DNA from: Actinomycetes bacterium
GTDB taxonomy: Bacteria > Actinomycetota > Acidimicrobiia > Acidimicrobiales > RAAP-2
Length of the DNA stretch: 33,721 bases
Reading direction: 5' to 3'
Assembly (NCBI GenBank): GCA_021818025.1
Contig: JAKAFH010000017.1
Location: 1 to 33,721 of the forward strand
Shown here: one piece after another, positions 6,650 to 33,553 of the stretch
How the letters are laid out: every line of letters begins with the position of its first letter
How positions within the stretch are numbered: the first letter of the stretch is position 1
Notes under the pieces: model-generated
Databases searched by the model: none
The model's input: the letters and a program-made list of their open reading frames with translations, nothing else
Told to the model about the DNA's origin: nothing
Translations under genes and position numbers: made by a program

Positions 6650-8167
<1,518 letters not shown>

Positions 8168-8182
8168 CACAGTTTCCTTTTC

Positions 8183-9094
8183 TTAATCGTTTTGCTTCAA
8201 AGCTGATTCGTACAAGTGGCCACTCGCGACGGCGTCGCGCAGTGTGGCGAGGCGGCCGCGGGTCGTGGCGTCCAGGCGCAAGTCGCCGACCTCCACGAGG
8301 ACCCCACCGAGCAGGTCGGGCTCCTCGGCGATCTGCAGCTCGACCGAGCTGCCCGTGAGCGAGCTGAGCGAGCGCGCGAGGTCGGCCTGGTCGCGCTCGT
8401 CGAGCGCGCGGGCGCTGTGCACGCGCGCGACGCGCCAGTTGCGCGCCTCGGCGACGTGGTCCACGAGGTAGTCGAGCGTGCCCACCACGTCGCGCGGACG
8501 CCCGCCGGTGACGACGTAGCGCGCGAGGGCGAGCGAGGCGGCGCTGACCCGGCCACTAAGCAGCTGGTCGGTCACCGCGACGCGCGCCTCGAGGGAGGCG
8601 TCGCGGTCCACGAGCAGGCGGCGCAGCTCCTGGCTCTCCTCGATGGTGCGCGCCCAGGTGAAGAGTTCGCGCTCGATCGCGGCGAAGTCGTCGGTCGCCA
8701 GGTCCTCGAGGAGGGCATCGGCGAAGCCGGCGACGCGCTTGCGCGCGCCGAGCAGCCCGAGGTTGCTCTGCTCGATGAACCCGTGGGCGGCGAGGTGGTG
8801 CGCGCTCTGGCTCAACTCACCGATCGCGCGCGGCACCTCTTGGGCGGGCGCCGTGGTCGCGGCGAAGACCGCGAGACGCAGGGTCGTGGTCGCCACCTTG
8901 CCCGCCAGCAGCTCGCGCACGATGGCCCCGCGCACCGGCCCGGCGATCGAGGTGTCCGCGAGCACGCCGCGCAGGTCGGCGCGGGTCAGGACGGTCTCCT
9001 CGAGCGCGACCAGGTCGCTGGCGACCGTCGTGAGGTCAGCCGCATCCAACGTTCCCAGGAGGGCGGCGGCGTAACCTTCGAGCTTGGGCAGCAT
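8183..9094 (-). CDS. atpH: ATP synthase subunit delta with duplicated N-terminal domain
   Basis: Delta joins the peripheral stalk to the top of F1. At 303 residues this protein is over 100 longer than the usual 175-185. The extra length is a repeat of the helical N-terminal domain: GYAAALLGTL at residue 7 and GFADALLEDL at 123; LRGVLAD at 41 and LRRLLVD at 157; ELLAGKV at 61 and QLLSGRV at 177; TLRLA at 71 and SLALA at 187. The spacing between copies is a constant 116 residues. The C-terminal b-binding domain follows from about 214 (LLGGVLVEVGDLRLDATTRG). In mycobacteria b and delta are fused and an extra region precedes delta; here b is a separate gene only two bases upstream. All five landmarks suggest tandem duplication. 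Confidence 0.95.
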   Translation of the reverse strand: MLPKLEGYAAALLGTLDAADLTTVASDLVALEETVLTRADLRGVLADTSIAGPVRGAIVRELLAGKVATTTLRLAVFAATTAPAQEVPRAIGELSQSAHHLAAHGFIEQSNLGLLGARKRVAGFADALLEDLATDDFAAIERELFTWARTIEESQELRRLLVDRDASLEARVAVTDQLLSGRVSAASLALARYVVTGGRPRDVVGTLDYLVDHVAEARNWRVARVHSARALDERDQADLARSLSSLTGSSVELQIAEEPDLLGGVLVEVGDLRLDATTRGRLATLRDAVASGHLYESALKQND

Positions 9095-9096
9095 GG

Positions 9097-9618
9097 TCAG
9101 CGACTCGTTCCGCGCTGCGCCTCGGCCGTGAGGGCGGCGACCGCCTCGCGGATGAGGTCCTGGTGGGTCTGCTGGTCGACCTCGCGTCCGACGATCTTGT
9201 TCACCAAGTCAAAGACGATCTCGCCGATGCGCGCCGAGGCCTCCTCGATGGCGCGCTGGCGCGCCGTGGCGACCTCGTCGCTGGCCGAGCCGACGATCCG
9301 GTCGTACTCGGCCTGACCCCGTCCGCCGGCCTCACTCTTGACCTGATCGGCGAGGGCCTGAGCGGCGGCGACAATCTCGCGTGCCTGGTCCCGCGCCTGG
9401 GCGAGCACCTTGGCGCGCTCGTCGCCCGCGGCGGCGGCCTCGGCTCGCGCCTGGTCGGCGGCCTCCAGCGACGCACGGATCTTCTCCTGACGTCCCTCCA
9501 TCGCCTTGTTGAGCGGCGGCAGCACGTACTTGGCCATGATGATCACGATCACGGCGAACACCAACAGCTCGACGAAGAACGTGCCGTTGGGGAGAAGGAA
9601 GATTGAAGAGCCAATCAT
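9097..9618 (-). CDS. atpF: ATP synthase Fo subunit b
   Basis: Subunit b is the membrane-anchored peripheral stalk. The 173-residue product has a single hydrophobic segment (about residues 14-35, FFVELLVFAVIVIIMAKYVL) followed by a long charged helix full of Ala, Glu, Arg and Gln that would form the right-handed coiled coil. Length is typical for a stand-alone b. The gene is separated from atpE by 73 bases holding a strong hairpin and from atpH by only two bases. GAGAG six to ten bases before the ATG is a modest ribosome binding site. Confidence 0.95.
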   Translation of the reverse strand: MIGSSIFLLPNGTFFVELLVFAVIVIIMAKYVLPPLNKAMEGRQEKIRASLEAADQARAEAAAAGDERAKVLAQARDQAREIVAAAQALADQVKSEAGGRGQAEYDRIVGSASDEVATARQRAIEEASARIGEIVFDLVNKIVGREVDQQTHQDLIREAVAALTAEAQRGTSR

Positions 9619-9691: not shown

Positions 9692-9958
9692 CTACTGCGC
9701 TTTGAAGACGTAGACGAAGACCACCATGAACAGCAGGTTGATGAAGTACATCGCCTCCACCAGACCGACCGTCAAGAAGAAGTACTGACGGGCCTTGTTC
9801 TCGATCTCGGGCTGACGCGCGATGGCCGCGATCGTCTGGCTACCGGCGAGACCGTCACCGATCGCCGCGCCGATGGCACCACCGCCGAGGGCGAGACCGC
9901 CACCGACGAGCGCACCGGCGATGCGTACCGCAGACGCAACCGAGTCTGTATTTGCCAT
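9692..9958 (-). CDS. atpE: ATP synthase Fo subunit c
   Basis: Subunit c forms the proton-driven ring. The 88-residue hairpin protein has two membrane helices: a glycine-rich first helix ([20 protein letters not shown], residues 17-36), the polar loop ARQPE (47-51), and a second helix with the proton-binding Glu68 in [10 protein letters not shown]. An Ala follows the Glu and no Gln sits in the first-helix position used by sodium-coupled rings, so proton coupling is inferred. GGAGGAAAG before the ATG gives a strong ribosome binding site, and a strong hairpin follows the stop. Both features fit high expression. Confidence 0.98.
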
Positions 9959-9983: not shown

Positions 9984-10748
9984 TTAGTGTGAGGCCTCTA
10001 CTGCGACGGGGTGCTCTTCCTCGTGGCTCGTGGCCATGCCGAAGTAGAGGATCGTCAAGAGCATGAAAATGAACGCCTGGATCGCACCGAGCAGTCCGGT
10101 GTCGAAGAGCTTCCAGCCGATCTCGAAGGGCGGGCTGACGTAGATCGGCAGCAGCGTGGTGAGCACCACGACGAAGAGGCCGCCGGAGAACAGGTTGCCA
10201 AAGAGACGGAAGGTGAGGGTGATCGGCTTAGTGATCTCCTCGACGATGTTGATCGGTGTCAGGGCGAGGTAGGGCTGGCCGTAGTGCTTGAAGTAACCCT
10301 TGAAGCCGCGGGCGCGGAACGACTCGATGTGCACCCAGACGATCACCAGCAGCGCCATGGCGAGCGGCAGGTTCACGTCGCCGGTCGGGGCGGGAAAGAT
10401 CGGACCCGAGACGCCGGGGTGCATCGCCGACGGGATGAAGTCGAGCCAGTTCGAGATGAGGATGAAGAGAAAGATCGTGACCGCGAGGGGCACGTAGCGA
10501 CGTCCCTTGGGCCCGATCGCCGACAGCGCCAGGTCGGTGACCTGCTCGACGAGAATCTCCCAGAAGAGCTGGAGCTTGCTCGGCACGCCGGCCGACACCC
10601 GCGCGCGCATGCGCAGTGCTAGAAAGAGGAAGATCGCCGCCGCGAGCAACGTCGACATCACGATGTCGCCGTCGATGGTCAGCCCGAACACTTTGAAGGT
10701 CGGGTGGACGCCAACCGTGATCGTCTTGGCGGCGTACAGCATCTTCAC
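9984..10748 (-). CDS. atpB: ATP synthase Fo subunit a
   Basis: Subunit a forms the two proton half-channels beside the c ring. The 254-residue product has five or six membrane segments and the essential Arg181 in [17 protein letters not shown] and [13 protein letters not shown] are further family signatures. GTG 10748 overlaps the atpI stop (GTGA) and has GGAGG six bases upstream (10755-10759), so I prefer it to the in-frame ATG at 10742. The C-terminus is acidic and His-rich ([14 protein letters not shown]). Confidence 0.97.
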
Positions 10749-29691: not shown

Positions 29692-29769
29692 GTTGCCGTG
29701 GTGTAATTGGATAACATGCCACCCTCCGAAGGTGGAGACTTGCGAGTTCGAATCTCGCCGGCAACACCA
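29692..29769 (+). tRNA. tRNA-Arg (anticodon CCG)
   Basis: The acceptor stem GTTGCCG pairs with CGGCAAC (29759-29765). The anticodon arm is CCACC-CTCCGAA-GGTGG, with anticodon CCG at 29726-29728, which reads CGG. The T-arm holds GTTCGAATC. Discriminator A29766 is followed by an encoded CCA (29767-29769). In mycobacteria a tRNA-Arg also lies at this point of the block, before argS-lysA. Confidence 0.95.
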
Positions 29770-31574: not shown

Positions 31575-31760
31575 GTCTATGAGTTCCGTTGCAACCGAGT
31601 GCACTCTAGTGAGCCCGCTCATGCCGCACTCCTCACGGAGTTGTTCGACCCGACAGGTGCCGGGGTTCCCTTTCGCGTGTCTTCGCCAGCCGCTGAGTGA
31701 GACTCAGCCTGATGCTCGGCTCCACGCTTCACCGGGGCTCTGACTGAGCCCAGGCTCGCC
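31575..31760 (-). ncRNA. Predicted omega RNA (TnpB guide RNA), approximate bounds
   Basis: In IS605/IS607 elements the tnpB 3' end and the adjacent IS end form the guide-RNA scaffold, and the flanking host DNA supplies the guide. Here the scaffold would cover the end of tnpB (with a hairpin GCTGAGT-3-ACTCAGC at 31692-31708 and TGAGC-GG-GCTCA at 31610-31621) to 31597. The guide would start in hipA as TTGCAACGGAACTC, read leftwards from 31594. The left limit assumes a guide of about 20 bases and the 5' limit is arbitrary. Confidence 0.4.
31609..31619 (+). repeat. Subterminal motif of the IS, tnpB-side end
   Basis: GTGAGCCCGCT starts 12 bases inside the IS end. It matches, in inverted orientation, the motif at 33572-33582 (GTGAnnCCGCT in both) and overlaps a TGAGC/GCTCA dyad. 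It is a likely recombinase binding site. Confidence 0.5.
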
Positions 31761-32983
31761 CATCGGGCGAGATTGATGGCGGCGTTGTCGTCGCGCTGGT
31801 GTGACGAGGAACACCCCTCACAGGTCCAGTGCTCCAACCAGCCAATGTCCTGGACGTGACCACAGGCGTGGCACGTCTTTGACGACGGGAAGAACCGGTC
31901 GGCCTCGATCAAGGTGGACCCATACCAGGGGCACTTGTAGCGAAGTTGACGACGGATCTCGCCGAGGGCCGCGTCAGCGAGCCCCCGTCGGCGCGCACGA
32001 GCACCGGGCAGACCCTTCTGTTGCAGCAGTGACGCCGCATCAAGCCCTTCGACCACCACCACGCCGTGGGTCTTGGCGAGGTTCGTGGTGAAGACGTGGA
32101 TGGTGTGACGGCGTACGTGGGCGACCTGCGCGTGCAGGCGCGTGATCGTGGCGGCGGTCTCTCGATACTGGCGTGAACCACGGGTGCGACGGGATTGCTG
32201 GCGCTGGCGTCGACGCAGTTCACCGAGTCGGTGTTCGAGAGCGTGGGGATTGTCGAGCTCGCCGATCACCTCGTTGGTGGTAGCGACCGTCGCGAGCCTG
32301 CGCACCCCGACGTCGACGCCGACCACCGAGTCAGGTTGGGTAACGCCGGCGCGCTGGGGGCGAGCGACGCTCACCCGCACGGCGGCGACGAGGCGCGCTC
32401 CTTGGCGCGAGAGCGTGACCCCAAGGATCCTGGCTCGATTGAGTGCGATCAAGCGCTCGATGCGTCGGGTGTTCTCGTGGGTGCGGATGGTCCCGAGCAC
32501 CGGCAGGGTGAGGTGGCGCCGGTCCGCTTCGAGCCTCATTACCCCAGTAGTGAAGGAGAATCGGTCCCGGTCCCGGCCGCGCTTCTTGAACCGGGGAAAG
32601 CCGACCTTACGACCTTTGATCGTGCCCGCGCGCGACTGCTGCCAGCGCCAGTAGGCGTCGGTGGCGCCGCGCACGCCGTCGGCGAAGACCTCCTTGGAGA
32701 CCTCTCGCCACCAGACCGCACCGGTATCGGCGTTCACGCAGAGGCGGTCCTTCTGCGCGTTCCAGCGCTTTCTCATCGAGTAGAAGGAGGGAGGCGTCGT
32801 CGACTCGCCGGTCTCGCGGTAGTGCTCGAGGTCGCACCTGATCTGCTCGAGGGTCCAGTTAAAGGCCTTGCGCCGAGCGCCAAAGAACCGCGCTATCTGG
32901 GCTGACTGTTCGTCCGTGGGGTCGAGCGCGAAGGTGAAGGCCTGGACGATCTGGCCCTCGGGTGGGCAGTACCTAGGCGGCAT
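31619..32983 (-). CDS. tnpB: TnpB, RNA-guided nuclease of IS607-family element
   Basis: TnpB proteins are the RuvC-type, omega-RNA-guided DNA endonucleases ancestral to Cas12. The 454-residue product (from ATG 32983) has an N-terminal domain with FTFALDPTDEQ and a WRWQQSRAGTIKGRKVGFPR-like core, then the split RuvC site: Asp in VVGVDVGVRRLA, Glu in VVVVEGLDA and Asp in RDDNAAINLAR. The zinc-ribbon Cys pairs are CHACG and CEGC. All three acidic residues and the four Cys are present, so activity is plausible. The start lies inside the last codons of tnpA (11-base overlap), in another frame; the open frame further upstream is a tnpA shadow. The stop is 22 bases from the IS end. Confidence 0.93.
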   Translation of the reverse strand: MPPRYCPPEGQIVQAFTFALDPTDEQSAQIARFFGARRKAFNWTLEQIRCDLEHYRETGESTTPPSFYSMRKRWNAQKDRLCVNADTGAVWWREVSKEVFADGVRGATDAYWRWQQSRAGTIKGRKVGFPRFKKRGRDRDRFSFTTGVMRLEADRRHLTLPVLGTIRTHENTRRIERLIALNRARILGVTLSRQGARLVAAVRVSVARPQRAGVTQPDSVVGVDVGVRRLATVATTNEVIGELDNPHALEHRLGELRRRQRQQSRRTRGSRQYRETAATITRLHAQVAHVRRHTIHVFTTNLAKTHGVVVVEGLDAASLLQQKGLPGARARRRGLADAALGEIRRQLRYKCPWYGSTLIEADRFFPSSKTCHACGHVQDIGWLEHWTCEGCSSSHQRDDNAAINLARWASLGSVRAPVKRGAEHQAESHSAAGEDTRKGTPAPVGSNNSVRSAA

Positions 32984-33553
32984 CGTCTGATGCCTGAACG
33001 GCCGCCAACGCCTTCGCCGCTCGGTGCGCGGCGCCACGACGACCGTAGAGACGAGCGCAGAACGACGTCAACACCTCAGTCATGTCGCCAACGAGATCGT
33101 CGTCGACTTCGGCGTCATCGACCACGACCAGTCGTCGGCCATTGGCCCGCAGCGACGCCGCGACGTAGTCAGAACCGAAACTGGCGAAGCGATCACGACG
33201 CTCGACCACGATCGTCGTCACGGATGGGTCAGCGAGTAACGCGAGGAATGTGCGGCGCTTGGCGTTGAGACCAGAGCCGACCTCGGTCACAACCCGGTCA
33301 CTCGAGTGGCCCTGGGACGTAGCCCAGACACGCACACGCACCGCCTGACGATCGAGGTCGTCTCGGTGGTCGGCCGACGACACGCGTGGGTAGTCGACGG
33401 TCGAGTCCCGTTGCGACGGCGAGGTTGCGAGATCGCCGACGAGAATCAAGCGGCCGACCTGACGCACCGGCACCGGCAACGCCCCTCTCGGAACCACCGA
33501 TAGGCGGTCTGGGGATGTATCCCTTGCACGTTGGCCCACTCACTTAGGTTCAT
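32973..33553 (-). pseudogene. tnpA: IS607-type serine recombinase TnpA, frameshifted
   Basis: The N-terminal MerR-like helix-turn-helix (MNLSEWANVQGIHPQTAYRW, from ATG 33553) is in one frame and stops after 35 codons. The rest, beginning ALPVPVRQVGRLILVGDL, is in the next frame. One extra G in the four-G run at 33482-33485 would join them (REG-ALPVPVRQ). The catalytic domain keeps the nucleophile region YPRVSSADH but has DRFASFG where serine recombinases have Asp-Arg-x-x-Arg: Ser, from AGT at 33180-33182, replaces the second catalytic Arg. The C-terminus (DDDLVGDMTEVLTSFCARLY) is well conserved. Either defect should reduce or stop transposition. Confidence 0.85.

Follow-up and report, generated by a model that had tools for sequence, protein, structure and literature searches.

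Does an actinobacterial ATP synthase whose b and delta subunits are separate proteins share the doubled delta N-terminal domain of the mycobacterial b–delta fusion, and, if so, does it represent a stage directly before that fusion? The question is raised by the atpH gene in a 33,721-nt stretch of DNA (hereafter the window, meaning the whole stretch analyzed), in which a first-pass annotation had pointed to a tandem duplication within delta beside an unfused b. The precedent is the b–delta subunit of M. smegmatis, in which a duplicated delta N-terminal domain has already been described (PMC8617483): its linking domain is approximately 20% identical to its delta domain, the two bind the N-termini of alpha2 and alpha3 alike, and the third alpha is held otherwise. 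The authors of that study state that the advantage of having two alpha subunits held alike is not clear, and call b–delta unique to mycobacteria.

The atpH locus and its operon

The atpH gene occupies positions 8183..9094 on the minus strand (start codon ATG, 9094-9092; stop codon, 8185-8183), as seen from the open reading frame and its translation, and encodes a 303-aa protein (P0001) that matches the Pfam OSCP family with an E-value of 8.4e-29. It lies in an ATP synthase operon with the order a-c-b-delta-alpha-gamma-beta-epsilon, likewise on the minus strand, in which b and delta were called by Pfam and the remaining genes were named by eye from their translations; these include atpB (a subunit, 9984..10748), atpE (c subunit, 9692..9958), and atpA (alpha subunit, 506 aa, 6650..8170). 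Subunit b is encoded by a gene of its own, as had been annotated: atpF (9097..9618, 173 residues, ATP-synt_B E-value 8.8e-25) ends two bases (9095-9096) ahead of the atpH ATG. The source genome (2.06 Mb, 97.5% complete) contains one OSCP match, so that delta is found once. The nearest match to AtpH in our genome collection is 96% identical, and among 80 records of relatives many are labeled Acidimicrobiaceae or Acidimicrobiales and some carry other labels, such as Acidobacteria; we take the source to be Acidimicrobiaceae-like. Elsewhere in the window are a tRNA-Arg gene (anticodon ccg, 29692-29769, plus strand) and a gene (31619-33037, minus strand) whose translation, judged by eye, is a 472-aa TnpB-like (IS200/IS605 OrfB) protein with zinc-ribbon-like cysteine pairs.

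AtpH contains two copies of the delta N-terminal domain

The constant 116-residue offset noted in the first-pass annotation proved exact: within residues 5-95, 25 of the 91 positions carry the same amino acid as the position 116 residues further on (ungapped BLOSUM62 score 92), and the best of the alternative offsets from 90 to 149 scores -11. A Smith–Waterman alignment of residues 1-110 with residues 116-215 scores 105, against a mean of 29.6 (s.d. 5.4, maximum 59) in 2000 shuffles. Across 49 aligned sequences, column conservation in the first and second copies (D1 and D2) is correlated at offset 116 (r = 0.45); the remaining 20 offsets between 106 and 126 give values of -0.18 to 0.20.

Structure prediction places a six-helix bundle in both halves of the protein, rather than in only one. 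The AlphaFold2 model of AtpH (alignment of 49 sequences; pLDDT 89.6, pTM 0.84) has six helices per copy followed by an alpha/beta C-terminal domain, giving two copies of the domain, residues 3-104 and 114-221, and one C-terminal domain; the tandem duplication is thereby borne out. D1 (8783..9088, minus strand) comprises helices 3-13, 18-37, 39-45, 52-63, 69-81, and 84-104, and when modeled by itself (112 residues, 43 sequences) it is predicted with the same six helices at a pLDDT of 93.5. It is joined by a loop of residues 105-113 (8756..8782), where conservation is lowest (mean 0.449), to D2 (8432..8755), with helices 114-129, 134-153, 155-162, 168-179, 185-197, and 200-221. The C-terminal domain (residues 222-292, 8219..8431) has modeled strands at 222-227, 252-257, 265-269, and 272-275 and is covered by a Pfam match reaching profile position 171. 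Each half, searched alone as the first-pass annotation had suggested, matches the N-terminal part of OSCP, with scores (18.8 bits for D1, 21.9 bits for D2) that both lie below the cut-off of 22.3.

The duplication is thus real and goes beyond chance: the shuffles, the AlphaFold2 model, and the conservation correlation together rule out two helical stretches that happen to be alike. A false upstream extension of an ordinary delta from a wrongly chosen start codon is likewise ruled out, because D1 folds alone in prediction and because, in 28 of 29 family f1 loci compared (L033-L061), its profile match begins at residue 6-7 (the exception, L054, is cut at a contig end). Family and order codes such as f1 and f36 are the labels of the genome collection.

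Comparison with known delta subunits

Relative to canonical delta and mitochondrial OSCP (PF00213), D2 and the C-terminal domain make up an ordinary delta, which AtpH extends by one N-terminal domain at an offset of 116 residues. AtpH shows the three features of the PF00213 family that were checked: it scores 101.3 bits (cut-off 22.3) over two stretches, of which the principal one (residues 125-288) covers D2 and the C-terminal domain; it has the six-helix domain (here twice) and the alpha/beta C-terminal domain; and it is encoded in an F-type operon.

The best solved relative of AtpH, both by sequence (1.7e-12) and by fold, is the mycobacterial b–delta of M. smegmatis (PDB 7NJK, 7NKD, 7JG5; NCBIfam NF009961), with which it shares a second delta N-terminal domain ahead of delta, as the repeat, the models, and the fold matches all indicate. 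In VIA-align searches with the D1 model, the top match is M. smegmatis b–delta (Z 14.8, 2.5 A over 110 residues), and the mycobacterial chains align to D1 from their residue 179 on. Of 154 aligned chains, 40 reach Z ≥ 8, and the first 41 rows shown are delta, OSCP, or b–delta throughout (canonical delta and OSCP at Z 8.9-11.5, with one more at 5.9), the first unlike chain appearing at Z 5.5; values below about 13 may reflect an arrangement common in helical bundles, and the 11 rows above about 13 are all mycobacterial b–delta. The extra sequence that the annotation mentions ahead of delta in the mycobacterial fusion is a duplicate of the same kind, on the strength of this fold match and of the published account (PMC8617483). 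Foldseek gives weaker results for the short D1 domain (best E-value 0.0089, none ≤ 0.001), with the 34 best rows all being ATP synthase delta, OSCP, or b–delta. With the whole of AtpH, its 14 best matches are all mycobacterial b–delta, over 292-305 alignment columns, at low TM-scores (0.28-0.40 by query length) and an rmsd of 12.7-16.4 A, so that the placement of the domains relative to one another is not matched between AtpH and b–delta. In VIA-align with the whole model, the mycobacterial linking domain (170-286) is matched by D2 (108-222; Z 15.3) rather than by D1, which there superposes on bovine OSCP (Z 8.5).

The two proteins differ in their relation to b. In M. smegmatis, b and the doubled delta form one fused subunit, accompanied by a separate b', whereas here b has its own gene and one b-like gene lies upstream; b and delta are not in one frame, and AtpH scores only 57.4 bits against the fusion model NF009961 (cut-off 328). 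In being both unfused and doubled, AtpH resembles the 271-aa delta of Actinomycetia (NCBIfam NF009967, PRK13430), the names "Actinomycetia" and "mycobacteria-like" being ones that we presume for the compared genomes from the family models they match. All 22 unfused Actinomycetia loci picked by NF009967 are doubled according to our own profile. AtpH scores 135 bits against that model, below its cut-off of 200; its copies are 116 residues apart, compared with 89-90 in four Actinomycetia loci, and its D1 match starts at profile position 1, compared with 5-19 in the Actinomycetia deltas.

Distribution of doubled delta subunits

Within the source family, AtpH is matched in 60 of 61 genomes, and in 54 of the 61 as one piece spanning both copies (counts read by hand from the match listing). 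Among the remainder, two have matches in two pieces that together cover both copies, two have the match divided between contigs, one is truncated at the start, one matches only residues 117-290, and one has no match. In the order, NF009967 is matched by 141 of 148 genomes, one of which passes its cut-off. We examined 90 of these 141 with our own delta profile, sampling each family once or a few times and somewhat favoring long frames. Doubled delta is present in 17 of the 56 sampled families besides the source family: 15 have double forms only, 39 have single forms only, and two are mixed. In one mixed family (f77), an apparent single form, L097 (genome G442, 1288-2312), consists of a D1 frame (1288-1705) overlapping a frame with D2 and the C-terminal domain (1700-2312), reflecting either an assembly frameshift or a delta split into two proteins. 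In the other (f108), the AtpA of the single form L139 (G431) falls outside the order, with that of L017 from another family, reflecting either a foreign contig or a transfer. One b-like gene lies upstream in 34 of 37 doubled loci from order-mates outside the source family, and among single-copy loci with sufficient flanking sequence, 14 of 47 carry two b-like genes. Among other orders of the same class, where the examination covered matched genomes other than G057, G491, G517, and G526, all four loci (L265, L266, L268, and L269) are single.

Long, unfused deltas are known from Streptomyces and C. glutamicum. Outside the class, 41 of 396 phylum-sample genomes pass the NF009967 cut-off, and the best 30 matches to that model among the 396 are all doubled (22 unfused, eight fused to b), a set that demonstrates presence rather than frequency because NF009967 models the doubled kind. 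In the first phylum search, by contrast, each of the 30 best matches to PF00213 is single. Doubled deltas were also observed at L262 (G058, f14) and L271 (G203, f54), whose families are otherwise single-copy in the sampled loci; the AtpA sequences of these two loci lie closest to one another and to those of the single-copy families f20 and f14, rather than to the Actinomycetia set, so a stray Actinomycetia contig is not a simple answer. Among viral contigs, three pattern matches included no relative.

Our literature search, conducted on titles and abstract openings with thin coverage of subscription journals, returned nothing on a delta that is doubled but unfused in Actinobacteria or Acidimicrobiia. 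Such a search only weakly indicates that no description exists for this bacterial group; the mycobacterial doubling was already known.

Duplication without fusion to b

The annotation had proposed that AtpH shows a state in which the domain was already duplicated and b and delta had not yet fused. The first part of this proposal stands, in that duplication without fusion is widespread; it follows that duplication does not need fusion. The second part, that AtpH represents the stage directly before the mycobacterial fusion, is not supported: AtpH belongs to an Acidimicrobiales-like group, and unfused doubled deltas much nearer the fusion occur in f36, a mycobacteria-like family, and in other Actinomycetia-type families. 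All 121 genomes of f36 match the b–delta model and 42 pass its cut-off, and a single stop-free open frame covers the whole fusion in 33 of the 121, from eight genera (listing read by hand). In four others (G576, G588, G613, and G630), b and delta are separate pieces, and the delta still scores 316-346 bits against the fusion model; the unfused f36 deltas are nearer the mycobacterial fusion than is the AtpH studied here. Even a single genus, g195, contains five fused and three unfused genomes out of eight, so that fusion is patchy even within f36. A 2017 report (PMC5709465) records that delta and b are fused in Gordonia as well as in some mycobacteria. AtpH is thus an instance of an unfused, doubled delta that occurs widely, and no missing link before the mycobacterial fusion.

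The g195 genome G485 (L178/L263) gives conflicting signals: by AtpA it adjoins the unfused G288 (L171/L264; SH-aLRT 83), and by its D2 domain it groups with the mycobacteria-type fusion (99, quick tree). A transfer or a replacement inside the operon may have occurred.

Number of duplications

The distribution described above could have arisen through at least two independent duplications, one in Acidimicrobiales and one in Actinomycetia, a reading on which we find the evidence evenly poised. Support comes from a tree of 82 AtpA rows, from which sequences with fewer than 250 aligned residues were omitted and in which, beyond the focal groups, each family contributes one row per state. In this tree, single-copy lineages lie between the two doubled groups and the double/single character needs four changes as called, at least two of them forced by the starred branches. 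Counting L097 as double lowers the number to three; adding the four single same-class loci and two more doubled loci of the phylum leaves it at three, with at least two forced. Profile similarities point the same way: in hhalign comparisons, Acidimicrobiia D1 scores 142.6 against its own D2 and 126.4 against single domains, compared with 90.3 against Actinomycetia D1. These profile scores lean toward a separate Acidimicrobiia duplication. Actinomycetia D1, however, yields low scores with all of the other groups (73.7-99.4 over six comparisons), and the low D1–D1 similarity may therefore be an effect of rate alone. The difference in copy spacing (116 versus 89-90 residues) also favors separate events, weakly so because spacing varies inside the order (112 in L121, 143 in L129).

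Trees of the domains themselves (D1, D2, and single domains) were built in a quick version (110 rows from 68 of 181 loci) and a careful version of 65 rows, the latter after removal of long-branched or divergent loci (L119, L150, L151, L121, L122, L129, L178, L128, L176, L170, and L094), rows of odd composition (L005 and L016), and 15 loci for size (L086, L107, L109, L141, L153, L068, L075, L077, L105, L112, L133, L137, L064, L172, and L059). Acidimicrobiia D1 stands apart from Actinomycetia D1 in these trees, at weak forks. In the quick tree, a single group with SH-aLRT 99 takes in 26 of 29 Acidimicrobiia-type D1 rows; L119, L150, and L151 lie instead with single domains of other classes. In favor of separate duplications, the same tree joins Actinomycetia D1 and D2 (SH-aLRT 84), though with three Acidimicrobiales D2 rows inside; the 65-row tree lacks this join and instead puts Actinomycetia D1 beside an Acidimicrobiales D2 row, L055 (95/84), a placement that is hard to read as history.

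The AU tests, performed on a 97-column domain alignment, show no preference: a single D1 clade (p = 0.511), an Actinomycetia D1+D2 clade (0.513), and an Acidimicrobiia D1+D2 clade (0.512) are all retained. Phylogeny, a kind of check that the annotation had suggested, thus rejects neither one origin nor two. A single ancient duplication that predates the divergence of Acidimicrobiia and Actinomycetia, with D1 orthologous to the mycobacterial linking domain and later lost in many Acidimicrobiales families and in other classes, is a serious contender that we consider slightly doubtful. In its favor, constraining all D1 copies to one clade improves on the free tree by 0.30 log units, and the best fold matches of D1 are the mycobacterial b–delta chains; against it stand the changes required on the AtpA tree, the single state of all four loci examined from other orders of the class, the greater closeness of Acidimicrobiia D1 to its own D2 and to single domains, and, as a weak point, the spacing. 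A fuller history, slightly less likely than not, is one in which the domain was doubled at least twice in Actinomycetota (in Acidimicrobiales and in Actinomycetia), each event adding a second, equivalent grip on alpha, and in which fusion to b (mycobacteria, Gordonia) was a later, separate step in one line.

Selection on the two copies and a proposed role for D1

Both copies are maintained, D1 less strictly than D2. Mean conservation is 0.609 in D1 and 0.715 in D2, and 15 positions are conserved at ≥ 0.85 in both copies (49 sequences), with pairs that include G7/G123, A11/A127, L28/L144, L41/L157, L45/L161, D47/D163, R55/R171, and L63/L179. Helix 1 is the best-kept part of D1 (0.82; 0.79 in D2). 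Sixteen positions conserved at ≥ 0.9 in D2 fall below 0.7 in D1, for example E141, F145, R149, V204-D208, and W220. The dN/dS of D1 ranges from 0.17 to 0.51, below 1 in all seven pairs compared, and exceeds that of D2 in all seven; D1 is thus under purifying selection, weaker than that on D2, and evolves faster. Given this faster evolution and the positions that are conserved in D2 and not kept in D1, looser binding or another job for D1 is possible.

By analogy with M. smegmatis, AtpH is probably a working delta of tandem D1–D2–C-terminal domain architecture, with b separate, in which D1 would bind a second alpha N-terminal segment. D2 would bind the N-terminal segment of one alpha subunit, the C-terminal domain would hold the C-terminal ends of b, and D1 would grip a second alpha by its N-terminal segment in the manner of the b–delta linking domain. 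Two of the three alpha subunits would then be held alike, and the top of the peripheral stalk might be strengthened. By fold and by position in front of delta, D1 is the likely counterpart of the linking domain, and a shared role is therefore the most plausible one. The presumed partner of both copies is the N-terminal segment of the atpA product, which resembles those of relatives with single and with doubled delta (eight compared, its own included). Against an anchoring role, 39 of the 56 sampled families of the order have single forms only, so that many order-mates live without D1. The 16 positions conserved in D2 but not in D1, the low TM-scores of the whole-chain fold matches, and the VIA-align result in which D2 takes the place of D1 on the mycobacterial linking domain also speak against it. 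It is improbable that D1 is a decaying or purely structural spacer with no binding partner, as its lower conservation and faster evolution might suggest, given its dN/dS, its confidently predicted fold, the conservation of helix 1, and its retention in most of the family.

The occurrence of doubling without fusion in many other actinobacteria separates duplication from fusion as evolutionary steps. It also supplies natural comparisons, doubled with single and fused with unfused, sometimes within one family or genus, through which the second alpha anchor that we propose may be probed.
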